Assembly: GCA_029263015.1 (NCBI GenBank)
Contig: JAJCYI010000194.1
Span: 1 to 62,753, forward strand
Reading direction: 5' to 3'
Length of the DNA: 62,753 nt
DNA from: Saprospiraceae bacterium
GTDB lineage: Bacteria; Bacteroidota; Bacteroidia; Chitinophagales; Saprospiraceae
The position numbers were made by a program, and so were the translations under genes. Positions 6,080-24,964 of the stretch are shown piece after piece (the stretch's first letter is position 1; each line of letters opens with the position of its first letter). Below the pieces are notes generated by a model. The model was not told the origin of the DNA, did no database searches, and saw only the letters and a program-made list of their open reading frames with translations.

Positions 6080-6225
6080 GGGTGTATTTCAAAATGTCGG
6101 TAGTACTTCCCCCAGTGTCTGACGCCTCTCAGGGCGTCTGACACTTATGCCCGAGTTAGGTGTCGGACGCCCTACGAGGCGACGGACACCCGGGGCAAAC
6201 GAAACCAACATTTTGAAATACACCC
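6080..6225. mobile_element. Palindromic MITE-like element, copy 1 (divergent interior)
   Basis: 146 bp bounded by 22-bp inverted ends: GGGTGTATTTCAAAATGTCG at 6080 and its near complement ending at 6225 (one mismatch). The interior consists of two related hairpins built on GTGTCTGACGCC and GTGTCGGACGCC, so the whole unit is close to one large palindrome. The 8 bases either side are AACCGGTT and AACCGGGA, a probable degenerate 8-bp target duplication. It shares its ends with the elements at 21276 and 24852 but not their interior. It carries no coding frame. Confidence 0.8.
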
Positions 6226-6292
6226 AACCGGGAAGTAATTATTTGACTGCTACTAAAATCAATTATTCACAAATTTAAAAATTAATTTAATT

Positions 6293-7135
6293 ATGAAAAT
6301 TTTAAAATCAATGGATTTAATTAAGTCCACATTAACCTCAATTGTATTTACATTGTTGAGTACAGCGTCCCTCTTTGGCCAGTCTTATTCATCGATAGAT
6401 GTAAATGATAACATGAAATCAAAAAAAGACTGTGCATCGGTTTGTGCTGACCATGTAAAAACAGCCAAAGTACTTTTCCAAAAAGACAAGGTGTACGAAA
6501 TCGTTTTCTTCTCTATAACCGAAGGAAAAGAAAATCAGATTTTTGAAAAATACCTGCCAAATGCAGCTCCCTACTTTGAGAAATATGGCGTGAAGACCAT
6601 CGGTATGTTCAAGGTAGAAGAATCCCGTTCTGAAGTATTGCAGTCTCAAATGGTTGGCATCTTCGAATGGTCCAGCTACCAAGCGAAAGAAAACCTGGAA
6701 GCAGATAAAGGCTTTCAAAAAGTAGCCAAACTACGCGATGGTGGTTTCTCTTTTTTCAAAGGTGGCTGGTTTGCAACTCCCGAAGATAAAGAGGTGGTCT
6801 TTTCTTCAAACAAAGTTTACGAATTGGCAGGGGCGACCCTTCATCCTACAGAAGAAGCCCAAGCTTCCATAGCTAAATACTTTGAAGTTTCGGAACCGAT
6901 CAAGAGAAACTATGGAGGAACCTATCCCGAATTTTTGGTAAATCTGAATCCAACAGATTCCAAAGGCACTTCTACTTATTCTAATGATATGCAGTTTATC
7001 GTAGAATGGGACAGCATAGATGATAATACCAAGTTATTTGCGGACGAAGACTTTAAAACGAAAGCAGCACCACTGATGATGGCGGCTCTTGCCAAAGCAG
7101 ATTTCGTATTTGCGAAGTATGTTTTTAGCGAATAA
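6293..7135 (+). CDS. Exported protein with two dimeric alpha/beta-barrel-like halves
   Basis: A 280-residue protein with a signal peptide (hydrophobic stretch to about residue 30, cleavage near LFGQS). The mature part has two related halves beginning KVYEIVFFSI (~66) and KVYELAGATL (~180), each with the pattern of DUF1330/NIPSNAP-like ferredoxin-fold barrels (FEKYGVKTIGMFKVEES..., FIVEWDSIDD...FKTKAAPLMMAALAKADFVF). Such domains bind small molecules or haem-like ligands, and some are monooxygenases. No catalytic residue can be named here. It stands alone between the MITE-like element and a hairpin, and may respond to the AraC regulator downstream. Confidence 0.65.
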   Translation: MKILKSMDLIKSTLTSIVFTLLSTASLFGQSYSSIDVNDNMKSKKDCASVCADHVKTAKVLFQKDKVYEIVFFSITEGKENQIFEKYLPNAAPYFEKYGVKTIGMFKVEESRSEVLQSQMVGIFEWSSYQAKENLEADKGFQKVAKLRDGGFSFFKGGWFATPEDKEVVFSSNKVYELAGATLHPTEEAQASIAKYFEVSEPIKRNYGGTYPEFLVNLNPTDSKGTSTYSNDMQFIVEWDSIDDNTKLFADEDFKTKAAPLMMAALAKADFVFAKYVFSE

Positions 7136-7164
7136 AATTTAGTCTGAGTAACTTGTTTATAATT

Positions 7165-7202
7165 GAAGTGGGTTGAAACATAAATTCGTTTCAACCCACT
7201 TC
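7165..7202 (+). terminator. Hairpin after the exported two-barrel gene
   Basis: Arms GAAGTGGGTTGAAAC and its exact complement (15 bp) with an 8-base loop, 29 bases after the stop. No T-run follows, so it is a transcript-end or stability hairpin rather than a classical terminator. Confidence 0.6.
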
Positions 7203-7215
7203 TAAGTAACAGGCC

Positions 7216-7408
7216 ACTTGCTTTTCAGAAAAGACGGCACTCTCAAAAAGAGGAAAATGACTACGCTGGATGAAAACGAGAACAGTCATATTTCGAAAGC
7301 ATGGAGTTCACCAATTGGAATGTGAGTGCGGAGAAGGGGCTACAAAATTGTTGGAATAAAACAAACTACTTTGAAAGCGTAGATGAAAAATTGGATATAT
7401 TGCGACCA
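7216..7408 (+). pseudogene. Decayed third copy of the sigma54 activator 3' end
   Basis: The stretch from CTTTTCAGAAAAGACG to TTGGATATATTGCGACC aligns with the last ~190 bases of the activator (2632-2825), but with several small deletions and frame changes. Its 60-codon frame at 7301 (MEFTNWNVSAEKG...) is an out-of-register echo of [13 protein letters not shown]. It ends immediately before the AraC-type gene, just as the intact duplicate ends before the TPR-LytTR gene. Confidence 0.75.
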
Positions 7409-7433
7409 ATATTAATTTCTAATAATCAATATC

Positions 7434-8288
7434 GTGATAATAGAGCACCGCACCATAAATTTATTTGGAAAAAAAGTTTTTGAAAAGGCGGTAGTCACTC
7501 CACCTTTCAAAAACCTTAATCCGCTTCCCAACGAGGCCTGTTTTTTATATGTACTGGAAGGAGGTAATAATTCTTATTCGGAAGAAGAGCATATCGTTCT
7601 TCATCAGGACGAAGCTGTTTTAATGAAGTGTGGAAACTATATGTATGATGGAATCGCGGATAATACTACCGGTAGATGCGGAATTATAGCAATTCATTTC
7701 CATCCTGAGGTATTGGAAAAAATTTATAAAAAGGAGATTCCTGCTTTTTTGAAAAAAAAAGAGCCCTTCCCGTTTCGGGCCAATATGGTTGCGGTAAAAT
7801 CTGAAATCCTAATTAATAAATACATCGAAAGCCTACTCTTTTATTTCGAAAACCCAAGCCTGGTGAATGAAGAGTTATTGATTTTAAAATTTAAAGAAAT
7901 CATTCTTTTATTGTTAAATACTAATGATGCGTCTGCCATTATCGAAATTATGCATAATCTTTTTTCGCCAAAATCCTTTTCTCTAAAGCAGATGGTGGAA
8001 GCGCATATTTTTTCACCCATCACCATTCCAGACCTAGCTCAATTAACAAACAACAGCTTGTCTTCATTTAAGCGCGAGTTTAAAAAAATATATCATGACA
8101 GCCCAGCCAATTACCTCAAAATCAGGCGATTGGAAAAAGCTGCAGAATTATTAATCGTATCAAACGAATCCGTAAGTTCCATAGCTTATGATTGCCAATT
8201 TAATGACATCGCTCATTTCTCTAATTCTTTCAAAACCAAATATGATTGCTCTCCTACCCAATATCGTTTGGACCAATCTCACAAATAA
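7434..8288 (+). CDS. AraC-family transcriptional regulator
   Basis: 284 residues. The N-terminal ~150 form a cupin-like sensor region (FLYVLEGGNNSYSEEEHIVLHQDEAVLMKCGNY split over a few strands). The C-terminal ~100 form the paired helix-turn-helix of AraC/XylS (ITIPDLAQLTNNSLSSFKREFKK, then SVSSIAYDCQFNDIAHFSNSFKTKYDCSPTQYR). It probably binds a small ligand and activates a neighbour, most simply the NmrA-like gene 112 bases downstream. The start at 7434 falls just after the decayed activator fragment, so its original promoter may have been replaced. Confidence 0.9.
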   Translation: MIIEHRTINLFGKKVFEKAVVTPPFKNLNPLPNEACFLYVLEGGNNSYSEEEHIVLHQDEAVLMKCGNYMYDGIADNTTGRCGIIAIHFHPEVLEKIYKKEIPAFLKKKEPFPFRANMVAVKSEILINKYIESLLFYFENPSLVNEELLILKFKEIILLLLNTNDASAIIEIMHNLFSPKSFSLKQMVEAHIFSPITIPDLAQLTNNSLSSFKREFKKIYHDSPANYLKIRRLEKAAELLIVSNESVSSIAYDCQFNDIAHFSNSFKTKYDCSPTQYRLDQSHK

Positions 8289-8326
8289 TTGAACGAATTC
8301 TAAAATAGACTCCCTTCCCACAGGTT

Positions 8327-8334
8327 TAATTTTG
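8327..8334 (+). promoter_or_regulatory. -7 box TAATTTTG before the NmrA-like gene
   Basis: Exact match to TAnnTTTG, 65 bases before the ATG at 8400 and inside the gap after the AraC gene. No -33 element is found at the usual distance, which would suit activator-dependent transcription, but this is a weak signal. Confidence 0.35.
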
Positions 8335-8399
8335 CATTGTAATCATTTGGAAAAGCTTTAAAGCTGTTTCAATATTTATCATCATTAAAATCTGTAAAA

Positions 8400-9458
8400 A
8401 TGAAACCTAAAATTTTAATTACCGCAGCAAATGGGAATACTGGCTATCCAGCCGCATTAGAACTTTTAAAAATGAATTTCCCTGTCCGGGCGTTTGTGAG
8501 AAATCCAAATTCGGCAAAAGCAAAAGACTTACGGCAAAAAGGAGCTGAAATATTTATTGGAAATATTGAGGACATTAGAGATGTAAGAAAAGCATTGGAA
8601 GGCGTTGACAGAGCTTATTTCGTACCAACCTATCCCAATGTTTTGTTCCAGGGAGAAACTTTCGCAACAGCACTTGAAGAAGCCAAAACAAAACATGTTG
8701 TAATTGTTACTCAATGGCTTTCATCAAACACACACCCATCCATTTATACTAAAGAACATTGGCTCGTTGACCAAGCCTTTAAAAGATTAACAAATACGAA
8801 TGTTACTTTTTTGAATCCTGGTCTTTTTGGTTTTATCTATTTCATGACACCAGAGCCACTGACTCAATTTGGAATGTTGCCTGATTTTGGGGACAATGCA
8901 CCTCCGTCCAGTGAAGATATTGGCCTGGTAGCTGCTCACATTCTGAAAGCACCCGAAGCCCACATTGACAAAACTTATCGGATAACCGGGCGCGAAGTAC
9001 TAACCGCCGATCAGATGGCTACAGTCATTGGAAAAGTAATAGGCAGGAACGTGAAAGCTACCATACTTCCTGAAAAGATAATTTCCAAAGTGCTAAGAGC
9101 CTCTGGGGTCACTCAAATGGACAGTTCCCAGGTAAGATATTATGTTCGGGAAGGCTACAAAGGAACTTGGACTATAAACGCACCTACGGATGTGGTAAAA
9201 GATATAGTTGGAAAAGAAGCGGATGATTTTGAAACGATTGCCAGAAGGTATTTGAATTCTCAGCCTATTGCTAAACAAACGCTGGCTAATAAAATCAAAG
9301 CCATTTTCTTCATGATGAAAGCAATGCTATTACCAGCCTGGGATATGGAAAAATTTGAAGAGGAAAGGGGTTTTCCTAATTTTCAAAATATGGTTTTTTC
9401 CTCTGAATCTAATGAATGGCGAAAGGAGCATAATGTTTCACAATTAGAGGAGGTGTAA
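8400..9458 (+). CDS. NmrA-like NAD(P)-binding oxidoreductase (atypical SDR)
   Basis: 352 residues. The nucleotide-binding loop of atypical SDR/NmrA proteins is at the N-terminus (ILITAANGNTGYPAALELL), followed by RAFVRNPNSAKA, where Arg suggests NADP preference, and the long substrate region typical of the family. The SDR Tyr-Lys pair is not evident, as usual for NmrA-like proteins, so it may be a quinone or azo reductase, an isoflavone-reductase relative, or a redox sensor. It follows the AraC regulator and precedes the MarR regulator, so it probably belongs to the xenobiotic or stress response group of this region. Confidence 0.82.
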   Translation: MKPKILITAANGNTGYPAALELLKMNFPVRAFVRNPNSAKAKDLRQKGAEIFIGNIEDIRDVRKALEGVDRAYFVPTYPNVLFQGETFATALEEAKTKHVVIVTQWLSSNTHPSIYTKEHWLVDQAFKRLTNTNVTFLNPGLFGFIYFMTPEPLTQFGMLPDFGDNAPPSSEDIGLVAAHILKAPEAHIDKTYRITGREVLTADQMATVIGKVIGRNVKATILPEKIISKVLRASGVTQMDSSQVRYYVREGYKGTWTINAPTDVVKDIVGKEADDFETIARRYLNSQPIAKQTLANKIKAIFFMMKAMLLPAWDMEKFEEERGFPNFQNMVFSSESNEWRKEHNVSQLEEV

Positions 9459-9485
9459 TGATTGGATTAAAAAAAATTATCTCTA

Positions 9486-9503
9486 ATGTTGTATGTACAA
9501 CAT
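9486..9503 (+). promoter_or_regulatory. Palindromic operator for the MarR regulator
   Basis: ATGTTGTATGTACAACAT: perfect 8-base half-sites around a 2-base centre. It covers a possible -33 TTG (9489-9491); CACCTTTG at 9512-9519 is a 7/8 match to the -7 box, 20 bases later. A bound repressor would block the promoter, which fits autoregulation by the MarR gene that follows. The same site, slightly degenerate, recurs before the MMPL gene. Confidence 0.65.
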
Positions 9504-9526
9504 AAATGGTGCACCTTTGTGCTATT

Positions 9527-9964
9527 ATGAATGAAAAACATAAGAAAATAAATTTTAAAAACATCAATCCTGTGATGTGTGCCGGAACCAAGATCAAGCA
9601 ATTGGGAAGGGTGATAGAGAAGTTTTATGCCCAGCCTCTGAAAGAGGCTGGGGTTACATTAAGCCAGACTTCTATATTGTTTTTAATTGGGAAATTCCAG
9701 ACCCTATCGCAAAGTGAGGTTGGCAAGATTCGCAACCTGGAGCGTTCCACAGTTACGAGAGATTTGCAAAGATTGGTTGACCGGAACTATGTTCACAAGA
9801 CGCCCCACCCTGTCAGTCCGATCTTAGAACTGACAGAGGAAGGAAAAGTTTTTGTGGAAACCCTTGCGCCAATTTGGCAGCAAGCACAAGACGAGGCCAT
9901 GAATTATTTGGGAGAAGAAGGCCAGCAGGCTATGAACATTTTGGCTTCTTTGTTAAAAAGGTAG
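9527..9964 (+). CDS. MarR-family transcriptional regulator
   Basis: A winged-helix dimer of about 145 residues. The fold is visible as CAGTKIKQLGRVIEKFYAQ (dimer helix), LSQTSILFLIGKF, SQSEVGKIRNLERSTVTRDLQRL (recognition helix) and the wing VDRNYVHKTPHP. The ATG at 9506 lies only two bases after the operator; I prefer 9527 (MNEKHKK), which leaves a short or absent leader after the probable promoter. It likely represses itself and the exporter operon downstream, and responds to a hydrophobic or phenolic ligand as many MarR proteins do. The two matching palindromes support this. Confidence 0.9.
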   Translation: MNEKHKKINFKNINPVMCAGTKIKQLGRVIEKFYAQPLKEAGVTLSQTSILFLIGKFQTLSQSEVGKIRNLERSTVTRDLQRLVDRNYVHKTPHPVSPILELTEEGKVFVETLAPIWQQAQDEAMNYLGEEGQQAMNILASLLKR

Positions 9965-9983
9965 TTCATTTTTTTTCATCATT

Positions 9984-10001
9984 ATGTTGTATATGCAACT
10001 T
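9984..10001 (+). promoter_or_regulatory. Second MarR-type operator, before the MMPL gene
   Basis: ATGTTGTATATGCAACTT: the left half is identical to the site at 9486 and the right half matches 6 of 8. It ends 14 bases before the MMPL ATG and 20 bases after the MarR stop. Suggests that the regulator also controls the exporter directly. Confidence 0.6.
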
Positions 10002-10015
10002 AAATTTATTTCATC

Positions 10016-12394
10016 ATGAATTCTATTAATTTTTTTCAGTGGGTCACTCGCAACCACAAATTCATCGTTGGCCTAAGCATTTTAGCTATTATAGCGGTTG
10101 GATCTTTTCTTCCAAAAATGGTTAAAGACACCACCTCCACCGCTTTTGTCCATCCCGAAAATCCAGTTCTGATCTATCGGGACAAAGTCAAAGAGACTTT
10201 TGGGTTAAAAGACCCTTTGGTAGTCGGCGTTTATCATCCAGTCTCCATATACAATGAAGAAAGTTTAATGCTAATTTCAAAAATTAGCGAGCAACTGCAA
10301 ACCATAGAAGGCATTGATCCTGACCAAATCAGAAGTATTGCGACAGAGAATAACATTGAAGGGACTTTTGACGGAATGGAGGTGGAGGTTTTTTATGAAG
10401 TAGATATAATGGATTCCGAAACGCCAGGAAAAGTCAAGGCAGCTTTGGAAGGTTTTGATTTATATCAGGGCAGTTTAGTTTCCAAAGATGGAAAGGTAGC
10501 TCTGATCATTGCCGAAGTGCTGGAAATAGAAGGGCAAAACAATACAGGAACCAAGGCCTATAAAAACATCCTTGCTCTTGTAGAGGAAATAAATGCAGGC
10601 GAAAACGAAATCCATGTTGCTGGCGAAGGTGCCATCAGTGATTACCTCACTTCGTACATTGATACCGATGCCCAGCGACTAAATCCAATGGCCGCACTGA
10701 TTATCACTTTGATCTTGATATTGGCCTACCGAACATTCAGTGGTGCATTTATCCCAAATCTTGTGGTAGGAGGCACAGTCATCATCACGCTGGGCTCCAT
10801 GGCTGGATTTGGTGTACCATTTTACGTGATCACCAATGCTTTACCTGTGGTGTTGATCGCCATTGCAGTAGCGGATTCCATTCATATTTTTGGACAGTAT
10901 TATGAAGAAGCCAGAGATCATCCAAATATGAGTCAGAAAGAGTTGGTGGTAAAGTCCATGTCTACCATTTTTCGTCCCGTAACTGTTACTACCTTAACGA
11001 CTATTGCAGGTTTTCTAGGGATTGCCTTTTCTTCAAATATGCCCCCTTTCAATCGGTTTGGCCTATTTGCAGCAATTGGTGTCTTTGCCGCCTACCTGCT
11101 TTCCATCTTGGTCATCCCGTCAGTTTTGATGCTTTTTAAACCCAAATCCAGCAAGGCACTGGGAAAGAAAGATTCGAAACCTGATTTTTTCAGCCGGTTA
11201 ATGGATCGATTGGGAGACTTTGTAATGGCTAAACCTAAAGTAATTGTCTTTTCGGGTATCGCAGTAGTCCTCGTGGGAATAATTGGATCCCTTAAGTTAG
11301 AAGTCAATTATGCCCCGATCCGAAACTTTAGACAGACCGAACCGATCGTCTTGGCTGACAACTTGGTGAACGAGCATTCCGACGGGACTTCCTTTCTCGA
11401 CATTGTGGTAGAAACACCGGAAATAGATGGATTGTACCAACCGGGTAATCTGAAAAAAATGGAGGCTTTGCAAGAATGGGTTACTACTTTGCCCCATGTC
11501 CAAGGCAGTACTTCCATTGTAGATTTAATCAAAAAAATGAATCGTTCATTAAATGAGAATCAAAAAGAATTCTATACAGTGCCTGAAAATGAAATGCTGG
11601 TAGCCCAGGAATTTCTATTATATTCTGCCAGCGGTGAACCTACTGATTTCGAAAATTTTGTGGATTACGATTACCAGGTGGCCAATATTCGGGTGGCCAT
11701 GAATAGCCCTTTGTTTCAAGATAAAAAAGTGGTCGTACAGGAAATCCAAAACTATTTGGATACACAGTTTAATGATGAAAATATAAAGGCTACGCTTAGT
11801 GGCAATGTTACCCTTGATTATGAGTGGCTGAAAAGTCTAGGCTACAATCATTTCCTTGGGATGGGGATTGCCTTATTGTTAATCATAATAGTTGCTTCGC
11901 TCAGTTTTAGATCTTTAGCTGCAGGTATTTTTACTGTTGTTCCAGTCACCATTTCCATTTTATTGATTTATGCGGTGATGGGTTTTGGTAACATGTGGTT
12001 GGATATTGGAACCACCATGTTTGCGGCCATTGCCATAGGAGCTGGAGTTGATTTCGCGGTGCATACGGTAGATCGCCTCATTTTCTTCATGAAAGATAAA
12101 GGGCTGGAAATACACCAGGCTATGCGGGAATTTTACAAGTCAACCGGACGAGCACTGCTTTTCAACCTGCTTGCCCTCGCACTTGGATTCGGCGTATTAG
12201 TAACAAGCATTGTTCCGCCGCTGGTGAATTTTGGAGCCTTGGTCGCCATAGCCGTTTCCACCTGTTTCATTGCCAGCATGACCTTACTGCCCGCTATGAT
12301 TTACCTGATCCGACCTGATTTCACTAAAGCAACTCAACAATTCGATTCCGTAATAAAAGAAGAGAAAATCCCAGCAGAAATACTGGTTCACTAA
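10016..12394 (+). CDS. MMPL/RND-family exporter (COG1033 type)
   Basis: 792-residue inner-membrane transporter with two MMPL halves. One transmembrane helix (~14-34) is followed by a periplasmic domain and a helix cluster (~225-390, including VLIAIAVADSIHIFGQYYEEA). Another helix at ~410, a second periplasmic loop and a second cluster (~615-770, including GAGVDFAVHTVDRL) follow. The paired acidic residues in the fourth helix of each half (AVADSIH, GAGVDFAVH) fit proton coupling. COG1033 proteins move lipids, hopanoids or other hydrophobic molecules. The LolA-like protein and the barrel protein encoded next could carry the cargo across periplasm and outer membrane. Regulated by the adjacent MarR through the operator in front of it. 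Confidence 0.9.
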   Translation: MNSINFFQWVTRNHKFIVGLSILAIIAVGSFLPKMVKDTTSTAFVHPENPVLIYRDKVKETFGLKDPLVVGVYHPVSIYNEESLMLISKISEQLQTIEGIDPDQIRSIATENNIEGTFDGMEVEVFYEVDIMDSETPGKVKAALEGFDLYQGSLVSKDGKVALIIAEVLEIEGQNNTGTKAYKNILALVEEINAGENEIHVAGEGAISDYLTSYIDTDAQRLNPMAALIITLILILAYRTFSGAFIPNLVVGGTVIITLGSMAGFGVPFYVITNALPVVLIAIAVADSIHIFGQYYEEARDHPNMSQKELVVKSMSTIFRPVTVTTLTTIAGFLGIAFSSNMPPFNRFGLFAAIGVFAAYLLSILVIPSVLMLFKPKSSKALGKKDSKPDFFSRLMDRLGDFVMAKPKVIVFSGIAVVLVGIIGSLKLEVNYAPIRNFRQTEPIVLADNLVNEHSDGTSFLDIVVETPEIDGLYQPGNLKKMEALQEWVTTLPHVQGSTSIVDLIKKMNRSLNENQKEFYTVPENEMLVAQEFLLYSASGEPTDFENFVDYDYQVANIRVAMNSPLFQDKKVVVQEIQNYLDTQFNDENIKATLSGNVTLDYEWLKSLGYNHFLGMGIALLLIIIVASLSFRSLAAGIFTVVPVTISILLIYAVMGFGNMWLDIGTTMFAAIAIGAGVDFAVHTVDRLIFFMKDKGLEIHQAMREFYKSTGRALLFNLLALALGFGVLVTSIVPPLVNFGALVAIAVSTCFIASMTLLPAMIYLIRPDFTKATQQFDSVIKEEKIPAEILVH

Positions 12395-12477
12395 TTATTC
12401 AACTATAGGCTTTATTCAGGAAATGACAAACGTCCATCAGGAACCATCTACAATAAAGTCTACTAAAATTTCAAATC

Positions 12478-13284
12478 ATGAAAACGACCTATTGGTTTAT
12501 CGCAGCAAGCCTACTCGTGGCTTTATTTTTCCAAAACGGAACAGCACAAAATCTTCCAAGTGCAGCCACCATCGTCCAAAAAACCCACGACCGCAATGAT
12601 GGAGATTGGGTTTCACAAGACCTAACTTTTGAGCTGATTGACAGGAGGGGTAAAAAGCGGGTCAATCTTACCCGCTCTTTCCGGAAAGATTACGGGGAAG
12701 AAGAAAGGCAATCGATTTTTTACCAAAGTCCTTCCAATGTAAAAGGAACCTCCTTTCTGACTTATGATTATCCAGAAAATGGCCGAGACGATGATCAATG
12801 GTTATATCTACCGGCTTTGAGAAAAACCCGCCGGATATCCGCATCGAACAAAGGTGATTATTTTCTGGGAACAGACCTGACTTATGAAGACATCAAATTA
12901 GGGCCAAAACTTTCGAGATACGATTACCATTACACGGTAACTGGCACAGCCGAAGTGGATGGGCATAAGACCTACCTCATCGAAGGAATACCAAAAACTG
13001 AAAAACTGAAAAAAGAGCTTGGCTATGGTAAAATACAGGCTTGGGTAGATACAGACATTTGGATGATAAGAAAAGCGGAATATTGGGACGTCGCAGGCAA
13101 TCATTTGAAATCCCTGGAGGTGAAAGACATTGAAAAAATCCAAGGTATCTGGACGGCTCAAAACCTGTATCTGATAAATCACAAGACCCGTCACCAAACT
13201 TGGTTGCGATTTACCAATATAGACTACAAGACCATCGTGGAAGATGACACTTTCACAGAGGAAGCATTGGTGAACGGATTGTAG
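12478..13284 (+). CDS. LolA-like outer membrane lipoprotein-sorting family protein
   Basis: 268 residues with a signal peptide ending near GTAQ (residue 24). The mature part fits the LolA_like/COG2834 family: ATIVQKTHDRNDGDWVSQDLTFEL, RSFRKDYGEEERQSIFYQSP, GTSFLTYDYPE..DDQWLYLPALRKTRRIS, SNKGDYFLGTDLTYEDI. The half-barrel fold of this family holds hydrophobic ligands. It is not LolA itself, as members of this group sit in MMPL operons. It begins 83 bases after the MMPL stop and is followed by a DUF1302-like gene. I infer a periplasmic shuttle for the MMPL cargo. Confidence 0.85.
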   Translation: MKTTYWFIAASLLVALFFQNGTAQNLPSAATIVQKTHDRNDGDWVSQDLTFELIDRRGKKRVNLTRSFRKDYGEEERQSIFYQSPSNVKGTSFLTYDYPENGRDDDQWLYLPALRKTRRISASNKGDYFLGTDLTYEDIKLGPKLSRYDYHYTVTGTAEVDGHKTYLIEGIPKTEKLKKELGYGKIQAWVDTDIWMIRKAEYWDVAGNHLKSLEVKDIEKIQGIWTAQNLYLINHKTRHQTWLRFTNIDYKTIVEDDTFTEEALVNGL

Positions 13285-13293
13285 TTACTATTT

Positions 13294-13318
13294 ATCCGGT
13301 GGCGAATCGCCACCGGAT
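13294..13318 (+). other. Intercistronic GC-rich hairpin
   Basis: ATCCGGTGGCGA and its exact complement, with a one-base gap at the tip, in the 77-base gap between the LolA-like and barrel genes. A T-rich but interrupted tail follows. Probably an mRNA-processing or partial-termination hairpin within the operon. Confidence 0.6.
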
Positions 13319-13361
13319 TCTTTCCTCCTCTTTTGTTTAACCAACTTAATAATCTACTATC

Positions 13362-14726: not shown

Positions 14727-14870
14727 GATCGAGTAAAAACCAACCAATCCAAACTTTTCCTTACTCATTCCCAAGCTTGATATAAGTAGTTGTTCCTACC
14801 TTGAAAGAATCAAACATTTACTCAATTGGACATTGCTTTATTTCGACTACAGTTTTGAGCCCTAAAACAG

Positions 14871-16793: not shown

Positions 16794-16860
16794 ATCCTAT
16801 TTAATTTTTTTCTAAAAAACCAAAAGAAGATTTAATCATCATCATTAAAATTCAATTAAA

Positions 16861-17616: not shown

Positions 17617-17626
17617 TATCGCGGTT

Positions 17627-17821
17627 AATTTAGGAGGTAACTTAAAGTTAAGTAGTCGAGGTTAAATAATTTCCGCTTTTATCGGCTGCTTTTTCCGAAT
17701 AGCTGTGTTATAAATTTTGAACGTAGCTTGGCTATGCTAAAAATTTTTGCCTTGCTCTTCAAAAAAATAAACTCGCTAAAAACTGGAAACTATTTAAACT
17801 CGACTACTTACCTCCTAAATT
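17627..17821. repeat. Palindromic element of the TAAGTAG/GCCTTG family, copy 1
   Basis: 195 bp filling most of the gap before osmC-like gene. Outer ends AATTTAGGAGGTAA and its complement, then TAAGTAGTCGAG.TTAAATA arms on both sides; the left arm carries an 11-base insertion. The interior holds GTAGCTTGGCTATGCTAAAA followed by TTTTTGCCTTG. The same interior and arms recur at 38394 (inverted), 62614 and, more diverged, 47023. No coding frame. Confidence 0.8.
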
Positions 17822-17842
17822 GGCGCCTAAAAAAATAATATC

Positions 17843-18268
17843 ATGCATAGCGTAAAAACAAAATGGGTTGATAAAATGGCTTTTGATAGCCAAATAGATA
17901 ACCACACTGTTCGAATAGACACCAATGGATTAATAGGAGATGATTCAGGACCAAGCCCAAAGAAATTACTATTATCTTCATTGGCTGGATGTACCGGAAT
18001 GGACGTCGTATCTTTATTGAAAAAAATGCGGGTTTCTGTTTCTGGATTTGAGATGGACATCGAAGCCGATTTAACAGAAGAACATCCAAAAATTTATTCT
18101 GAAATAAGATTGGTTTACCGTTTTTATGGAACAGGCCTGAATAAAGAAAAGGTAGAAAAAGCAGTACGGCTTTCACAAGAAAAATATTGTGGCGTTAGTG
18201 CCATGCTAAGAAAAAACAGTCCTTTAAATTACAGCATCGAGTATGTAGAAAAATCGGTAACTGTTTAA
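17843..18268 (+). CDS. OsmC-family peroxiredoxin-like protein
   Basis: 141 residues, the normal OsmC/Ohr size. The two conserved cysteines appear in SSLAGCTGMDVVSLL and QEKYCGVSAML; these form the peroxidatic/resolving pair that reduces organic hydroperoxides, with dihydrolipoamide as the usual reductant. The GxxxGPSPKKLLLSSLAGC start is typical of the OsmC rather than Ohr branch. It lies in the stress-gene run between the isochorismatase-like and DUF1348 genes and is followed by its own terminator. Confidence 0.92.
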   Translation: MHSVKTKWVDKMAFDSQIDNHTVRIDTNGLIGDDSGPSPKKLLLSSLAGCTGMDVVSLLKKMRVSVSGFEMDIEADLTEEHPKIYSEIRLVYRFYGTGLNKEKVEKAVRLSQEKYCGVSAMLRKNSPLNYSIEYVEKSVTV

Positions 18269-18281
18269 AAAATATTATTAC

Positions 18282-18318
18282 TTTAATCATGGTGATTTTT
18301 AAGATCACCATGATTAAA
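18282..18318 (+). terminator. Terminator after the OsmC-like gene
   Basis: TTTAATCATGGTGAT and its exact complement (15 bp) with a 7-base T-rich loop, 13 bases after the stop and followed by TTTTC. Confidence 0.75.
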
Positions 18319-18352
18319 TTTTCAGTAATTTCAATTGTCACAAATCAATATC

Positions 18353-18763
18353 ATGGAAAAAAAATACCCAATCCCCCCTTTCACAGAGGAAACAGCAAAA
18401 CAAAAAATCCAAGCGGCAGAAAATGCCTGGAATTCTAAAAACCCTGAAAAAATCGCGTTGGCCTATACAGAAGATTCTGAATGGCGAAACCGCTCTGAGT
18501 TCGTTAACGGGCGCGCAGAAATCATTTCTTTTCTACAAGGCAAATGGGAAAAAGAATTGGATTACAAATTGAAAAAAACGTACTGGGCGCACACCGAAAA
18601 TAGGATTGCAGTAAGGTTTGAATACGAATGGCGCGATGAATCCGGTCAATGGTACAGAGCTTATGGAAATGAAAACTGGGAATTTGACAAAAATGGGTTG
18701 ATGAAAAAGAGGTTTGCCAGTATCAACGACCTACCGATTAAAGATTCGGAAAGGAGATTGTAA
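18353..18763 (+). CDS. DUF1348 family NTF2-like protein
   Basis: 136 residues from the ATG at 18353 ([10 protein letters not shown]); a TTG at 18335 would add six residues but has no support. Matches DUF1348, a nuclear-transport-factor-2-like cone fold: [72 protein letters not shown] and the ending [11 protein letters not shown]. Enzymatic role unknown. DUF1348 genes are often found near flavin-binding and detoxification genes, as here with the PNPOx-like gene that follows. Confidence 0.9.
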
Positions 18764-18863
18764 ATGGAAACTTAAAGTGACAACTTTTAGAATGGTATCA
18801 CTTTTAATCGGCACAAAAAGCCAATATCTCTGAATTGGCCAAAGAATCATAAAAAATTGAATT

Positions 18864-19484
18864 ATGAATTATCCTAAATTGGCATTTACAGATGCTATCA
18901 AAAAATTGCAAGAGCAGCATGGAAGCCGAAATAATTACGACAGGATGGAACGGTATTCTTCCACAGAAGGGCTAACATCAAGGGAAATAAATATGATAGC
19001 AGCACGCAACAGTTTTTATATGGCTTCTTTTGGGAAAAATGGTTTCCCATATATCCAGCATCGGGGTGGGCCAAAAGGTTTTCTGAAAGTTCTGGATGCA
19101 CAATCCCTTGCATTTCTCGACTTCAAAGGAAATATGCAATACATCTCTGTTGGCAATATCAAAACAGATAATAAGATCGCCCTCATAATGGTCGATTATC
19201 CCGCAAAAGCCCGCCTGAAAATCTATGCGGAAGCTGAAGTGGTTTCCTTGCAGGAAAATCCTGACCTTGAGAAAAAATTAAAAATAGAGGGGTACAATTA
19301 CCGACCAGAAAGGATCATGCTTTTCCATGTCAAGGCCTTTGACTGGAATTGCCCCCAGCACATTACACCGCGTTATACCGTAGAAGAAATCGAAGAAGTC
19401 TTTGCCCCGCAAAAGGCATATATTGAAACCCTAGAGCAGGAAGTAAAAAATCTAAAAAGACGTCTTGTTATCGATGGGCAATAA
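18864..19484 (+). CDS. Pyridoxamine 5'-phosphate oxidase-like flavin-binding protein
   Basis: 206 residues with the split-barrel FMN-binding fold: FYMASFGKNGFPYIQHRGGP (strand and phosphate-binding region), FLDFKGNMQYISVGNI and KIALIMVDYPAKARLKIYAEA. A short coiled coil (APQKAYIETLEQEVKNLKRR) closes it and may aid oligomerisation. It is not PdxH: the PLP-binding residues are absent. More likely it reduces or senses small oxidants using FMN. It is the last gene of the plus-strand stress run. Confidence 0.87.
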   Translation: MNYPKLAFTDAIKKLQEQHGSRNNYDRMERYSSTEGLTSREINMIAARNSFYMASFGKNGFPYIQHRGGPKGFLKVLDAQSLAFLDFKGNMQYISVGNIKTDNKIALIMVDYPAKARLKIYAEAEVVSLQENPDLEKKLKIEGYNYRPERIMLFHVKAFDWNCPQHITPRYTVEEIEEVFAPQKAYIETLEQEVKNLKRRLVIDGQ

Positions 19485-19556
19485 TCTTGTTTATAATTAA
19501 ATTTTGCGGTTCTAAAAGTTTTATTCTTTGACAATTTTCGTGGCATACAATACTTA

Positions 19557-19637
19557 ATTAACCACAGAGAACACAGGGAGACACAGGGAAAGTTTTCTAT
19601 TTCTGCCTCAGTGCTCTCTGTGTCCCCCGTGGTTAAC
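19557..19637. repeat. Widespread ACCACAGAG-type extragenic palindrome
   Basis: TTAACCACAGAGAACACAGG at the left pairs imperfectly with CTCTGTGTCCCCCGTGGTTAA at the right. This ACCACAGAG/CACAGAG palindrome is known from many unrelated bacterial genomes. It lies between the convergent PNPOx-like and GH20 genes and could end both transcripts. Confidence 0.75.
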
Positions 19638-19673
19638 GATTCCAACAAATTTGCAGTGAGAAAACCACCACTA

Positions 19674-21233
19674 CTATTCCGCCCAAGGCACGGACTTCGA
19701 GCGGTAAAAACCGATTTCCATCGCATCCATTCGTTCCGCAAATTGCCCCAATCTAATTTTATAGGTTTCCCAATCCCTCACGGTGGCAGGCGACCAGCCT
19801 ATCTCCGCATATCCCAGTAAACGAGGGAAAACCAAGTATTCGATGTCGTCCATATTGGTGACCGTTTCACTCCAGAGCGGAGCCTCGATGCCGATGATGT
19901 TTTCTTTTTCGATACCGGGGAACAGGGTCGCCGGATCCCAAATATAACCAGTGTCCACTTCAATGTAAGCGGCCCAGTGAAGCCCAATTCTACTTGTGGA
20001 ATCGTATTGCATATCGAGATAAGATTTGGTGGCGGGCGACATGATGAGCTTCGCTCCTTTTCCGACCGCTTCCTTGGCAAAATCGGCATTGTTCCAAAGC
20101 TGCACTAGGTTATTGGCGCCAATCTCTGCCTGCGCCGTTTCATCCCAGCCGATCATTATTTTGCCATGTGATTCCACGATTTCCTTGGCCCTGTTCACAA
20201 ATGGCAGGTAATCCTCCTTTTTTGTGGCGTGCGATTCGTCACCACCGATGTGGATATATGGCCCAGGCGTAAGTGCCGCAAGTTCACTTACCACATCGTC
20301 GATGAACTGGTAAGTAATTTCCTTGCTGGTACAAAAAGAACTGAATCCGACTTCCGTACCTGTGTAAAGCTCCGTGGCTTTGCCGTCACAGTTAAGTTCG
20401 GGGTATGAGGCCAACGCCGCATTGGTGTGGCCAGGCATGTCAATTTCAGGGATGATAGTAATGAATCGATCCTGTGCATATTTCACGATGTCGGCGTATT
20501 CTTCTTGTGTATAAAAACCACCTTCTCCACCTCCCACTTCAGTGCTTCCGCCGTGGGTCGTCAAGTTGGGCCATTTCTTGATTTCGATGCGCCAGCCTTG
20601 GTCATCGGAGAGGTGTAGGTGGAACACGTTCATTTTGAAAGCAGCCATCAAATCAATGTAGCGCTTCACATCTCCCACACTGAAAAAATGCCGGGAAACA
20701 TCCAGCATGGACCCTCGGAAAGAATAAGTCGGAAAGTCCTTTATTGTGCCAGAAGCCAATTTCCAAAGGCCAGCTTGCTTTTCGCCCGATTCAATGCTGG
20801 CAGGCAACAATTGCAGCACGGTCTGGATAGCATAAAACAGGCCTGCGGGTTGGTTCGCTGTAATGTTCACACCATTTTTTGAAATGGCCAATTCGTATCC
20901 TTCATTGCTCAGTTCTGCGTTGTCGCCAGAAAGAGAAAGATAAATATATCGCTTAGAAGGTGCTTTGTCCACTGTCTTAACGGCCAGTTCAAAACCAGTT
21001 GCAGGGGCCAACTTATCGGCCAGGTACTGCCCCACATTTTCCAAACCTTCTTGCACACAAACAACCGTTCGATCTGTCAATTCAAAAGAAGTGCCCGTGG
21101 CTTCCACAGATACCGGTTGTGGGATGAGAGGAGCCTGTGTCAGATCCGTCGGGGCTTCTGGTGGTTGGCAGGAGAAAAGGAAAGTGACGAGGACTGTGGC
21201 GAGACAAAAAAAAGTGAGCTTGAGTATTTGCAT
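19674..21233 (-). CDS. Lipoprotein beta-N-acetylhexosaminidase (GH20)
   Basis: 519 residues: lipobox at FLFSC22, GH20 N-terminal domain (to ~165), then the catalytic TIM barrel starting FRGSMLDVSRHFF. The catalytic Asp332-Glu333 pair is in HIGGDES, preceded by PEIDMPGHT (262-270) and MNVFHLHLSDDQGWRIEIK. It removes terminal GlcNAc/GalNAc from chitin fragments, peptidoglycan pieces or glycans by substrate-assisted catalysis, and acts in the periplasm or on the cell surface. Length fits single-domain GH20 enzymes. Separated from glycerate kinase by a MITE-like element, so probably transcribed alone. Confidence 0.94.
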   Translation of the reverse strand: MQILKLTFFCLATVLVTFLFSCQPPEAPTDLTQAPLIPQPVSVEATGTSFELTDRTVVCVQEGLENVGQYLADKLAPATGFELAVKTVDKAPSKRYIYLSLSGDNAELSNEGYELAISKNGVNITANQPAGLFYAIQTVLQLLPASIESGEKQAGLWKLASGTIKDFPTYSFRGSMLDVSRHFFSVGDVKRYIDLMAAFKMNVFHLHLSDDQGWRIEIKKWPNLTTHGGSTEVGGGEGGFYTQEEYADIVKYAQDRFITIIPEIDMPGHTNAALASYPELNCDGKATELYTGTEVGFSSFCTSKEITYQFIDDVVSELAALTPGPYIHIGGDESHATKKEDYLPFVNRAKEIVESHGKIMIGWDETAQAEIGANNLVQLWNNADFAKEAVGKGAKLIMSPATKSYLDMQYDSTSRIGLHWAAYIEVDTGYIWDPATLFPGIEKENIIGIEAPLWSETVTNMDDIEYLVFPRLLGYAEIGWSPATVRDWETYKIRLGQFAERMDAMEIGFYRSKSVPWAE

Positions 21234-21275
21234 TTGTTTGTTGTTTTAATTAGAAAACCAAAAGTCATCAAAATT

Positions 21276-21389
21276 GGGTGTATTTCAAAATGTCGGTGGA
21301 AACGTAGGCCGGATTTCCCAATCCGCCCTGTTCACAGCCGGATTGGGAAATCCGGCCTACCTTCTTAACCGACATTTTGAAATGCACCC
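21276..21389. mobile_element. Palindromic MITE-like element, copy 2, with 8-bp target duplication
   Basis: 114 bp with 22-bp inverted ends (GGGTGTATTTCAAAATGTCG... at 21276; complement ending 21389 with one change). The interior is a long hairpin, GTAGGCCGGATTTCCCAATC and its complement around a short loop. Both sides carry the same 8 bases, TCAAAATT (21268-21275 and 21390-21397). Nearly identical, in inverted orientation, to copy 3 at 24852: apart from one loop base and one end base they agree. Confidence 0.9.
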
Positions 21390-21391
21390 TC

Positions 21392-21451
21392 AAAATTTCC
21401 AAACTTGACGAGATGAAATTCCAAAATTGACGAGATGAAATTCCAAAATTT
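21392..21451. repeat. Short tandem repeat (~22 bp unit)
   Basis: About 2.7 copies of AAATTCCAAAATTGACGAGATG lie between the MITE-like element and the glycerate kinase stop. Function unknown; probably replication slippage. Confidence 0.65.
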
Positions 21452-21452
21452 G

Positions 21453-22568
21453 TCAAATCTGGTGCATCATTTCAAACACCAACCCCTCCAAGCGCTCCTC
21501 AGCCTCAGTCATCGCTTGTTCCAAGGTTACGCCTTCTGTCATTATTTCTGCCCAATAATCAATGCCCATTGCTTTTAATGTTTCTTCCTCAACTTCTAAT
21601 TTTCCACATACTACAGCGACTGGAATTCCTTTTTTTCGGCAGACTTTGGCAACACCTTCCACCAATTTGCCTTTACTCGTTTGATAGTCAAGCTGGCCTT
21701 CTCCAGTGATGACCAAATCAATATCTGAAAGTTGTTTTTGGAAGGCGCTTATTTCCATGATCATTTCGATACCGGACTGGATGGAAGCACCGAGAAAAGC
21801 GACAGCTCCTGCACCCAATCCTCCTGCTGCTCCACCACCTTTTATATTTGAAATGTCTTTGCCAATATCCCTTTTTATTATTTTGCTAAATTGTCGAAGT
21901 CCATTGTCCAATAATTGCACGGCATCATCGCCAGCGCCTTTTTGTGGGGCATAAATATGGGCAGCACCGTCCTTTCCATACAGGACGTTTTTCACATCGC
22001 AAACTACCGTTATATTGATTTTATTTGGGTCAAATTTTAATTCACTTTTGTCAATGGAATATACTGCAATTAAATTTTTTCCTATTGGTTTTAACTGTTC
22101 TTTTTCATTATTCAAAAAATTATACCCCAGTGCTGCGGCCATTCCCATTCCAGCATCATTGGTTGCGCTTCCACCAATAAAAAGGAATATATTTTTCACG
22201 CCTTTTTCTATGGCGTCGAGCATCATTTCGCCAGTGCCATAAGTAGTGGTAAAAAGACAATTCCGTTCTTTATTATTTAATAATTCAAGTCCCGATGCAG
22301 TTGCCATTTCAATTAAAGCAGTGTCTTTGTTTTTTTTGTAAAATGCCTGCACAGGGCGAAAAAGCGGGTCATTGACGGTGAGATAAATCGTTTCTAAATC
22401 GAGTGTGTTTCCAAGAATTTCGAGCGTTCCTTCTCCTCCATCGGATAGGGGGTGCAGGATCGTTTCGATGGCTGGGTCGTATTTATTAATACCTTTTTGA
22501 ATAGCCCGGCAAACTTCTGTTGCAGTTAATGAACCTTTGAATTTATCAGGTGCAATGAGGATTTTCAT
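21453..22568 (-). CDS. glxK: Glycerate kinase (GlxK/GarK type)
   Basis: 371 residues, the full length of the GlxK/GarK family, starting with the family hallmark MKILIAPDKFKGSLTA. Other matches: HPLSDGGEGTLEIL, LFIGGSATNDAGMGMAAALGY, GGGAAGGLGAGAVAFLGA and DLVITGEGQLDYQTSKGK. It phosphorylates D-glycerate to 2-phosphoglycerate (some members 3-phosphoglycerate) to feed glycolysis. The start codon overlaps the stop of the FG-GAP gene upstream by ATGA, so translation of the two is coupled. No glyoxylate or tartronate genes lie nearby, so the pathway source of glycerate is not shown. Confidence 0.95.
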   Translation of the reverse strand: MKILIAPDKFKGSLTATEVCRAIQKGINKYDPAIETILHPLSDGGEGTLEILGNTLDLETIYLTVNDPLFRPVQAFYKKNKDTALIEMATASGLELLNNKERNCLFTTTYGTGEMMLDAIEKGVKNIFLFIGGSATNDAGMGMAAALGYNFLNNEKEQLKPIGKNLIAVYSIDKSELKFDPNKINITVVCDVKNVLYGKDGAAHIYAPQKGAGDDAVQLLDNGLRQFSKIIKRDIGKDISNIKGGGAAGGLGAGAVAFLGASIQSGIEMIMEISAFQKQLSDIDLVITGEGQLDYQTSKGKLVEGVAKVCRKKGIPVAVVCGKLEVEEETLKAMGIDYWAEIMTEGVTLEQAMTEAEERLEGLVFEMMHQI

Positions 22569-24820
22569 TTTGACAAAATCACCTTTTTAATTATTACCTG
22601 GTTTTCTTTTTTCAGCTTAATAAAATAAATGCCAGAAATATTACCTGTCAAATCTATTGATGTCGAATTCTGCATATTTTTTTCAAAATAAATTATTTTT
22701 CCATAAATATCAAAGATGGACAATTCTGAGTCTTCAGCATTTTCAATATTAATCACACCCGATGTCGGGTTAGGGTATATTGTAATTAATTTTTTTTGAG
22801 GAATTGCCCGCTCTTTAGAATCAACCAAACCATCCACAGTTATAGAAGATTGAAAAAGAGTTAGTCCGCCCCGGTCATTTCCGACCATCGCATCCATGTA
22901 ATTACTTCCATTAATATTGGCGAAAGAAATACGGGATATACTACCTTCTCTAATTTCACCAAAATATTCATCCAATAGCTCAAAAGCACCTTCACCTAAA
23001 CTGTCAACATCTATTTTATAGCGCTTCAACCAACCTCTGAACGAGCCAGAAACAATAAACACTTCATTATCAAAATCCAAAACGACAGGCTGGCTATACC
23101 CGACAGTAGCCCCCACCGATTGTGTATTTATTTTTCCAAAATAATCATTATTTGGCGACTCTTCTACAATAGGGTGAAAGTCTGGATTACTTGCTGTTCC
23201 AATATTTGGAAAATAATTTACGGTCCCTTTTAACTCTCCAATAATTAAATCTGGCAATCCATCTTTATTTATATCGTGGATAAAGGGAGTTGAATATTTT
23301 CCTACATTTATTTCTTTCCAATTAAATTGAAAATTATTGAATTGCATGGTATTTCCTGGCCCAGCTATATTTTCAGCATAATGAACATTTCCATTAAATT
23401 TGCCCAATAACAGGTCATCGTCACCGTCATCATCCATATCGCCAAAAGTTGGTGACATAGCATTTATGGCAGGGAAATATTGCCCAAGCCCAAGCCAATC
23501 CTCATCAACCAATTCAAATACGGGTGAGCTGACAGAGCCTATGTTTATTAACAAATACAAGGAAGCCGCACCCATTCCCTCTGCCCAGGCATCCTTATTG
23601 CCGACCACGATATCAATCAGGTTATCGGCATTTACATCTACAAAAACGGGATTTGCACCTGTGCCAAAATCAAGCATCCCATCTGCCAGGAAATCTTTTT
23701 TAATAAAGTTAAATTCAGGGAACTCATCACTGCCTGAATTTTCATAATACCAGGCAGTTTGAATATCTGGTGATGTCCAAATCTGGTTTGGTGAAACAAT
23801 TAGGTCTCGGGCATTATCCTTATTTATATCCAGAAAAAAAGTAGCTGGAAAATAAGGAATGTTTATTGGGTCATTATAGGAAGGAAAAATAGCATCCTGC
23901 TCTGTTACCCAAGCGGCATTTTCATTTCCGTTGTTTTTACCAAAAATAATATTAGGACTGATTAAATCGCCATATAAAATTTCTTTGTCGCCATCTGCGT
24001 CTGCATCAAAAAAATTAAGCGCCGTGCCTCCATGCGGGTTGTTTCGGTCAAATGCATCTTCGGGATCATCATAAAATACGCACATATTTGGATCGAGGCT
24101 CAGTGACAACGACTGAGTATCAGGCAATATTCCAAATCGTCCCCAACAATCGTCTGACCATTCAAATAGAAGCGTGTCAGTAGAAAAATTATTTTCGAGG
24201 GAAATATTTTTGTAAAAAGAGATTTTGTTCCCACCCTGGCCTATTGTCAAAATATCCAAGTCACCGTCGCCATCAACATCATTGATGGCAGGATAATCCA
24301 AATGCAACCAAATCCTTATTTGATCTATTATTTCACCGTTGTCCACATAAGGAATTATGTCATGTGAATATTCTGGAAAAGCAATGCGGTCATATTTCAA
24401 AAAACCATTTTCCAATGAAGCTTTATATACTTTTAAACCAACTTGGTATTCATCATGTGAACTGGCAAATAAATCAGGAAGTCCATCATTGTTAAAATCG
24501 CGCATCAACACAAAATCGCGGACTTCTGGGAAATTTTTCAGCCAATACCGAGAATATTGATAATGGATCGAACCAGGCGAGTTATCTATATTGATAAATG
24601 ACAAATGCACATTACCGTTCCTGTCAAATGCATAAAGATCTTTCACCCCGTCATGGTTAATGTCAAACAATGCCCACTGAGGAGCATTCATCCCGCCTGT
24701 CCAAGGGTTCGACAACTGCTGCCCGTTTTTAAATACCGGCACCTCCATATAATTAAATACTTGCCCGTTTAAAGTATAATTAACAAGCAGTATAAAAAAT
24801 ATGGAAACAGAACATTTCAT
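22565..24820 (-). CDS. Secreted FG-GAP/VCBS repeat protein with T9SS type A sorting domain
   Basis: About 751 residues from the ATG at 24820 (signal peptide MKCSVSIFFILLVNYTLNGQ). Upstream reading through the MITE-like element would give a 60-residue false extension. The body is an FG-GAP beta-propeller with Ca-binding loops such as DINHDGVKD, DFNNDGLPD, DVDGDGDLD and DMDDDGDDD. The last ~80 residues (TIYPNPTSGVINIEN... GIYFIKLKKENQVIIKKVIL) are a type A T9SS sorting domain. So it is secreted across the outer membrane and probably anchored at the surface, with an adhesive or ligand-binding role. ATGA overlap with glycerate kinase. Confidence 0.9.
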   Translation of the reverse strand: MKCSVSIFFILLVNYTLNGQVFNYMEVPVFKNGQQLSNPWTGGMNAPQWALFDINHDGVKDLYAFDRNGNVHLSFINIDNSPGSIHYQYSRYWLKNFPEVRDFVLMRDFNNDGLPDLFASSHDEYQVGLKVYKASLENGFLKYDRIAFPEYSHDIIPYVDNGEIIDQIRIWLHLDYPAINDVDGDGDLDILTIGQGGNKISFYKNISLENNFSTDTLLFEWSDDCWGRFGILPDTQSLSLSLDPNMCVFYDDPEDAFDRNNPHGGTALNFFDADADGDKEILYGDLISPNIIFGKNNGNENAAWVTEQDAIFPSYNDPINIPYFPATFFLDINKDNARDLIVSPNQIWTSPDIQTAWYYENSGSDEFPEFNFIKKDFLADGMLDFGTGANPVFVDVNADNLIDIVVGNKDAWAEGMGAASLYLLINIGSVSSPVFELVDEDWLGLGQYFPAINAMSPTFGDMDDDGDDDLLLGKFNGNVHYAENIAGPGNTMQFNNFQFNWKEINVGKYSTPFIHDINKDGLPDLIIGELKGTVNYFPNIGTASNPDFHPIVEESPNNDYFGKINTQSVGATVGYSQPVVLDFDNEVFIVSGSFRGWLKRYKIDVDSLGEGAFELLDEYFGEIREGSISRISFANINGSNYMDAMVGNDRGGLTLFQSSITVDGLVDSKERAIPQKKLITIYPNPTSGVINIENAEDSELSIFDIYGKIIYFEKNMQNSTSIDLTGNISGIYFIKLKKENQVIIKKVILSK

Positions 24821-24851
24821 GATTAAAAAAAGGGAGGGGGTTGATGATTTA

Positions 24852-24964
24852 GGGTGTATTTCAAAATGTCGGTAAGAAGGTAGGCCGGATTTCCCAATCC
24901 GGCTGTAAACAGGGCGGATTGGGAAATCCGGCCTACGTTTCCACCGACATTTTGAAATACACCC
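24852..24964. mobile_element. Palindromic MITE-like element, copy 3, with 8-bp target duplication
   Basis: 113 bp, nearly identical to copy 2 in reverse orientation. Perfect 22-bp inverted ends (24852-24873, 24943-24964). Flanked on both sides by ATGATTTA (24844-24851 and 24965-24972), a perfect 8-bp target duplication. It lies only 31 bases upstream of the FG-GAP gene's ATG, so it must affect, or provide part of, that gene's 5' region. Confidence 0.92.

Follow-up and report, generated by a model that had tools for sequence, protein, structure and literature searches.

Miniature elements of a Saprospiraceae genome carry pairs of REP palindromes between inverted ends close to those of an ISKra4-like insertion sequence

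Miniature inverted-repeat transposable elements (MITEs) with a repetitive extragenic palindrome (REP) as core are known from Coxiella burnetii, where QMITE2 has terminal inverted repeats of 23-29 bp, direct repeats of 7-11 bp and a GTAG REP core (PMC5896051; reviewed in PMC10969869; cited here from their accessible portions). The combination of MITE and GTAG REP core described below therefore has a precedent. The subject is a MITE family present in three copies on a contig of Saprospiraceae bacterium (assembly GCA_029263015.1, contig JAJCYI010000194.1, positions 1 to 62,753; this whole stretch of 62,753 nucleotides is called the window). Like QMITE2, the family combines a MITE with a GTAG REP core, a very stable fold and short copies resembling REPs. 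QMITE2 has one REP family, its short copies are described as truncated MITEs, and the accessible text of PMC5896051 names no mobilising insertion sequence (IS) and does not use the term 'RAYT' (REP-associated tyrosine transposase). The present genome, in contrast, has two REP families within one set of ends, a RAYT gene for each of them and a full IS with near-identical ends; sister species carry elements with other cores. In the portions of the open-access literature consulted, QMITE2 was the sole REP-core MITE found, which is not a claim of absence from print.

Two further systems serve for comparison, again from the accessible portions of the papers. REP doublets forming hairpins (REPINs) or bacterial interspersed mosaic elements (BIMEs) consist of inverted REP pairs forming long hairpins, and matching REPs flank a tyrosine transposase gene; both traits, and the GTAG feet in the case of the repeats called REP-A here, recur in the present genome (PMC3116915, PMC2817692, PMC3733652, PMC6006769). 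The difference is that here a DDE-type MITE with target duplications contains or adjoins most of the REP-A units. As of 2013, Proteobacteria, Cyanobacteria, Chloroflexi and the Planctomycetes-Verrucomicrobia-Chlamydiae (PVC) group were on record for GTAG repeats, and Bacteroidetes for CGTC repeats only (PMC3733652). According to PMC6006769, Bacteroidetes are rich in REP transposases, accompanied by GTAG 'double foot' REPs or by atypical structures; by its feet, REP-A fits the 'double foot' class. The mechanism of REP spread is called central yet unresolved in the REPIN paper (PMC3116915). The ISMich2 group of the ISKra4 (p-MULT 4) family encodes a Mutator-like DDE transposase in two open reading frames (ORFs) with a -1 frameshift, and the family is recorded in Bacteroidetes (PMC3942029). 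The transposase of the full IS is likewise laid out in two ORFs with a -1 overlap. The word 'mite' does not occur in the accessible text of PMC3942029, and no target-duplication length for the family was found there.

An initial annotation, made from the window sequence, had delimited three short elements with common inverted ends and read them as MITEs. A search for the end as a 20-mer (up to 3 mismatches) returned six matches in the window, which form three inverted pairs, and none in any of 100 shuffles. The coordinates given for the elements proved exact, and so did the flanks: two perfect 8-bp repeats and one 6/8 repeat. The features are as follows.

6072..6079: left target duplication of copy 1, AACCGGTT, 6/8 against the right copy
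6080..6225, + strand: MITE copy 1, type B, 146 bp
6080..6099, + strand: inverted end of copy 1, 0 mismatches to the 20-mer
6115..6144, + strand: REP-B hairpin 1 of copy 1, GTGTCTGACGCC...GGCGTCTGACAC
6159..6190, - strand: REP-B hairpin 2 of copy 1
6206..6225, - strand: inverted end of copy 1, 1 mismatch to the 20-mer
6226..6233: right target duplication of copy 1, AACCGGGA
21268..21275: left target duplication of copy 2, TCAAAATT, perfect
21276..21389, + strand: MITE copy 2, type A, 114 bp
21276..21295, + strand: inverted end of copy 2, 0 mismatches to the 20-mer
21304..21325, + strand: REP-A unit of copy 2, GTAGGCCGGATTTCCCAATCCG
21339..21360, - strand: REP-A unit of copy 2, inverted
21370..21389, - strand: inverted end of copy 2, 1 mismatch to the 20-mer
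21390..21397: right target duplication of copy 2, TCAAAATT, perfect
24844..24851: left target duplication of copy 3, ATGATTTA, perfect
24852..24964, + strand: MITE copy 3, type A, 113 bp
24852..24871, + strand: inverted end of copy 3, 0 mismatches to the 20-mer
24880..24901, + strand: REP-A unit of copy 3, GTAGGCCGGATTTCCCAATCCG
24915..24936, - strand: REP-A unit of copy 3, inverted
24945..24964, - strand: inverted end of copy 3, 0 mismatches to the 20-mer
24965..24972: right target duplication of copy 3, ATGATTTA, perfect

Folded as RNA, the first element gave -91.9 kcal/mol (z -12.2) and the third -88.1 kcal/mol (z -15.9).

The family was then counted in the genome from which the window comes (G000; 6.95 Mb in 245 contigs, numbered with C; other G-numbers denote comparison genomes). 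Up to 3 mismatches, the end matched 51 + 50 times, compared to 1 + 0 for the reversed pattern. Pairing was carried out inside stretches fetched around the end matches listed, and family counts refer to paired elements in those stretches. At least 45 end pairs were found, namely 42 MITEs, one full IS and two doubtful pairings (C139:111577 and C162:5036); at least 16 single ends were seen additionally, several of them on worn or cut copies. The MITEs fall into type A (at least 32 copies, 112-119 bp), type B (at least 7 copies, 145-146 bp) and type C (at least 3 copies, 131-132 bp, with an AT-rich core). Duplications were counted without the full IS, the two doubtful pairings and a copy on C54 whose left flank is lost at the contig end. 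A perfect 8-bp target duplication bounds 29 of the 41 MITEs with full flanks (type A 24/31, type B 3/7, type C 2/3), and perfect duplications of 7 bp and 9 bp were seen once and not at all, respectively. Shuffling the right flanks 2000 times, which occasionally gives an element back its own flank, yielded a mean of 0.73 perfect 8-bp pairs and a maximum of 5. The 12 imperfect copies have 1 mismatch (3 copies), 2 mismatches (4) or at least 3 (5); in a type B copy on C137 the duplication becomes perfect if the element start is shifted one base later. The target duplications are AT-rich (75%, left flanks 67%). These short, non-coding elements with shared ends and target duplications of fixed length are a MITE family. 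The genome-wide search with inverted end pairs and tabulated flanks, as the annotation had proposed it, thus upheld both the MITE reading and the 8-bp footprint. Copies without any duplication, which had been named beforehand as speaking against this, amount to just a few. Phage records contained no match to the element, and among viral contigs no stretch had the end pattern.

The core of type A consists of palindromes paired in inverted orientation, one foot reading GTAG and the other CTAC. Both feet (scored as GTAG and CTA[CT]) are kept in 29 of 32 type A MITEs and also occur at the flank on C184 described below. With up to 1 mismatch the REP-A pattern has 96 matches in the genome and none in the reversed control; 12 other genomes gave one match in total, in G008. 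Thirty-one paired MITEs contain 59 of these 96 units; another 13 adjoin a single MITE end, and the remaining 24 are found elsewhere. Across most aligned type A copies the spacing of the pair from the ends is constant, and so are its linkers, which are unequal. A gene for 221 aa (C184:66332-66997, RAYT-A) has REP-A on both sides, three free units bordering it. Its product matches the NCBIfam model REP_Tyr_transpos (E=9.1e-22). The REP-A feet fit those of TnpA_REP subclass 2.4 (a GTAG foot and a C[TC]AC foot); of the motifs of that subclass, NH[IFV]H and YIxNNP, RAYT-A has NHIH and reads YTLNNP at the second.

Type B has another palindrome pair as its core, made up of GGTGTCYGACGCC and a partner. 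The REP-B pattern (up to 2 mismatches) has 65 matches in the genome and none in the control. Twelve of them lie in paired elements, two of these inside the doubtful pairing C139:111577, whereas 10 lie beside one end and 43 elsewhere. REP-B pairs stand on both sides of a second gene (C168:28255-28941, RAYT-B, 228 aa), which has an NHFHF motif and matches REP_Tyr_transpos (E=2.3e-10). As in TnpA_REP subclass 2.6, RAYT-B is flanked by atypical structures that recur elsewhere in the genome. It reads NHFH and YIHHNV at the positions of the subclass motifs NH[LIV]H and YIH[QN]NP, and was therefore not filed there.

Cores A and B are thus inverted pairs from two palindrome families, each of which also occurs outside MITEs, flanking its own RAYT gene. 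The annotation had concluded on transposition rather than hairpin amplification. This is right for the elements; the hairpins inside them, however, also exist alone outside elements. It had also stated that ends and not content define the family, which agrees with contents drawn from the REP palindromes of two other families. The identity of the interiors was the point it overlooked. Six further Y1 transposase genes score above the Pfam cut-off (C127:42714, C90:14865, C103:271, C167:21044, C229:27331 and C12:370); within 1 kb of these six, no REP-A or REP-B match was found.

The ends of a full IS of 1262 bp (C72:4109-5370) match the MITE end at all but 1 and 2, respectively, of 22 positions. 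This IS contains open frames of 70 and 335 codons, whose -1 overlap falls on a run of nine A. The second frame alone matches the ISKra4 model NF033572 of NCBIfam (E=1.8e-50, 172 bits, under the cut-off of 205). Further support is provided by a relative (G116:C100) from a different genus within the family, with 37% protein identity over 303 aligned positions. It has the same A9 layout, ends starting GGGTGTAT and flanks CATTTCAA/CATTTCAA, a perfect 8-bp duplication. In both ISs the overlapping frames predict the two-ORF, -1 frameshift organisation of the ISMich2 group, and homology and layout together suggest that the C72 element belongs to an ISMich2-like group of the ISKra4 family. Its ends have CTTCG/TTTCG variants in common with the type C MITEs and the elements of G010, a genome of the same genus. 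The annotation had guessed at a DDE transposase of an IS family with an 8-bp footprint, and the C72 element bears out the guess at a DDE-type IS. Ends, footprint and family concur in making its transposase a candidate mobiliser, as far as sequence comparison goes. Relatives of the transposase (E <= 0.001) occur in 5 of 40 genomes, the own genome included. Named genomes probed with peptide patterns of the transposase gave 24 stretches matching a pattern, 0 of them confirmed. Among plasmid records, 46 had a transposase match, all below 60% identity (at most 30.2% among the 15 listed). A relative with 40% identity (G014:C103) was examined and showed no convincing ends.

A second ISKra4-like gene of the genome (C139:48451-49479) was rejected as mobiliser because its ends differ (GGGCGCAACAGCGATC). 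It is a 390-aa open frame inside inverted ends of its own, about 1460 bp apart (L187 1133-2592). This inverted repeat, with 18/20 matches, starts GGGCGCAACAGCG, and the flanks GACGGCTAT/GACGGCAAG match in part. Its own, different inverted repeat suggests that it is a separate IS, although two type C MITEs are about 1 kb distant.

Elements with the same ends were also found in other genomes. The end was sought in 40 genomes, and six, own genome included, had a match with at most 2 mismatches. In G001 and G012 these were single ends with no partner. The fetched stretches of G007, G009 and G010 contained 23 paired elements shorter than 300 bp. Each of them is bounded by a duplication of 8 or 9 bp, with no more than 2 mismatches, and has a core unlike those of types A and B. 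Outside the 300-bp limit there were two longer pairings of 1154 and 414 bp, neither with a duplication, and several ends without a partner. In G010, 16 of 19 paired elements are 90-92 bp long; they share ends, 8-9-bp duplications and the genus with the window elements and differ from them in size and in having no REP-A or REP-B core. One G010 core folded alone gave -13.3 kcal/mol, compared to -47 to -62 kcal/mol for the three window cores. By eye, other palindromic cores are present in the four elements of G007 and G009 and in those of 125 and 137 bp in G010; variants of one of these cores also cluster elsewhere in G007 and G009.

At L139 31-150 (G010:C248) the right end of another copy lies exactly 8 bp to the left of a 92-bp element at 59-150. 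The two copies share one 8-bp spacer and are thus read as a tandem insertion at the contig start. The same 21-bp end was seen in two Prevotellaceae and one Saprospiraceae metagenome-assembled genomes (L167 227-247, L175 6308-6328 and L174 7543-7563), and at L174 a degenerate inverted partner (7 mismatches) follows about 170 bp further on.

We consider it probable, with good confidence, that an ISMich2-like DDE transposase of the ISKra4 family mobilised the MITEs in trans and that the REP pairs were captured as passengers. The transposase would bind the ends of about 22 bp and excise or copy the element, which would insert with an 8-bp stagger while the core stays passive. REP pairs would have entered the core at least twice, giving rise to types A and B, and the composite would then have multiplied as one unit. 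Copying as a unit would account for the near-constant spacing between REP and end. What favours capture over loss of ends is that the same ends enclose two unrelated palindromes, and that each of these is found around its own RAYT gene without the ends. With REP pairs seemingly taken up between IS ends on two or more occasions and multiplied as passengers, the DDE system may have become the main spreader of REP-A in this genome.

Several observations weigh against this proposal. The C72 element lacks a duplication, its flanks differing at 6 of 8 bases, and was found once in the genome; a closer partner could be lost or could lie outside the 245 assembled contigs. In G007, G009 and G010, whose elements share these ends, nothing matched the C72 transposase at E <= 0.001, so that either the mobiliser was lost there or another transposase is responsible. 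ISKra4-family genes are scarce in the order (6 of 149 genomes, none above the cut-off). On the side of the cargo, RAYT-A stays under the cut-offs of REP_Tyr_transpos (77.5 bits, cut-off 80) and of Pfam Y1_Tnp (20.6, cut-off 23), and its match to TnpA_REP in the PDB is weak (E=0.015). RAYT-B reaches 40.5 bits against the same NCBIfam cut-off of 80 and had no match in the Pfam (Y1_Tnp) and PDB searches. When 10 loci with RAYT-A relatives were scanned, arrays of GTAG hairpins were seen in G014 only, and G003 had two isolated hairpins. The direction of capture is not proved. The readings that follow overlap with each other and with the preferred one, and the confidence placed in them is not meant to sum to one.

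The elements may be real MITEs that owe their movement to some other transposase than the one of C72, for instance to that of a lost IS with exact GTCG ends. The 1-2 deviating end positions of the C72 element, its missing duplication and the sister genomes without a relative of its transposase speak for such a mobiliser. On the other hand, type C MITEs and G010 elements carry exactly the CTTCG/TTTCG variants of C72, and the other ISKra4-like gene, on C139, has different ends. We regard a different mobiliser as possible but doubtful.

A second alternative reverses the order of events. The palindrome would be the MITE's own core and free REPs would be MITEs stripped of their ends, as the authors of QMITE2 read their case. 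Worn ends were indeed found near some REPs outside pairs. Besides the 13 REP-A units at a single end, a test covering 22 of the 24 free units (the remaining two are the same palindromes on the opposite strand) revealed clear end relics at C219:2934 and C233:6406 (p about 0.001-0.002). Relics at C219:2898 and on C43 were weak (p 0.046, roughly expected from 22 tests), and the others were random-like. For REP-B, 10 of 65 matches stand beside one end, and an end-like stretch lies within 130 bp of 6 of the 43 free ones (1% level per side from a random control; 9 if one more mismatch is allowed; in three of the 43 one side is lost at a contig end). This reading nevertheless appears unlikely: the two palindromes within one end set are unrelated, each borders a REP transposase gene of its own at a place with no MITE end nearby, the RAYT-A relative of G014 is flanked by different GTAG palindromes, and the 90-92-bp elements of G010 have the ends with other contents, the single core folded being weak.

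The preferred reading of passenger REPs could also be extended to stacked systems. The DDE MITE would then be a general carrier that repeatedly took up REP pairs of different tyrosine-transposase families across the genus; the nested pair would still be a live RAYT substrate, and the element could move by the DDE or by the single-strand REP route. This is a speculative extension which we think decidedly unlikely in its full form.

It is highly improbable that RAYTs put REP pairs into MITEs that had already spread, each REP-bearing MITE being a separate insertion. RAYTs have been proposed to move REPINs to new sites (PMC3116915, accessible portion), and on C44 one REP-A unit and a REP-B pair lie beside a single worn MITE end. 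Still, the constant REP position and the unequal linkers in most aligned type A copies fit copying as a unit, and a search of 187,861 bases of fetched stretches of the own genome for end pairs of 30-95 bp, as an empty element would measure, gave none. Finally, palindromic cores are common in MITEs, but the idea that these cores resemble REPs by coincidence is effectively refuted by their sequence identity with the RAYT-flanking REPs, with 96 REP-A matches (three units bordering a REP transposase gene) and 65 REP-B matches against none in the controls.

This is a well-supported, real MITE family with unusual cargo. A large share of the REPs of one genome moved, judged by the footprints, as passengers of a DDE-type MITE, and REP copy number therefore need not reflect RAYT activity. 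Caution is advised in reading MITE cores, as a core can be the recognition site of another mobile element. Candidate transposases are available in this genome for the carrier (one) and for the cargo (two), and each of them is thus separately testable.

In two of the sister species a small GIY-YIG nuclease gene is flanked on both sides by palindromes of the TGCCG[CT]AGGCAA type, at three loci.

L268 248-616 (G009:C20): GIY-YIG locus
L269 561-1028 (G007:C17): GIY-YIG locus
L271 2676-3047 (G007:C115): GIY-YIG locus

The G009 copy encodes 122 aa and matches the GIY-YIG model of Pfam (E=7e-13). The locus looks like a REP-type unit built on a GIY-YIG gene instead of a RAYT gene. MITEs with the same ends as in the window, at L134 521-669 (G007:C54) and L136 521-666 (G009:C34), have as core a variant, GGCCGYAGGCCANCTGCG, of these palindromes. 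Cargo capture may thus include a third repeat system.

In the window, the copies occupy gaps between ORFs of the same direction. Copy 1 precedes an ORF at 6293, and the other two lie in the gap between a glycerate kinase gene and a glycoside hydrolase family 20 (GH20) gene and in a gap between two genes with a type IX secretion tail domain. The long hairpin predicted for the elements could plausibly affect local transcripts, as a terminator, an attenuator or an RNA stabiliser. Immediately to the right of copy 2, a direct repeat of about 23 bp (TTGACGAGATGAAATTCCAAAAT) is present in two copies (21405-21450).

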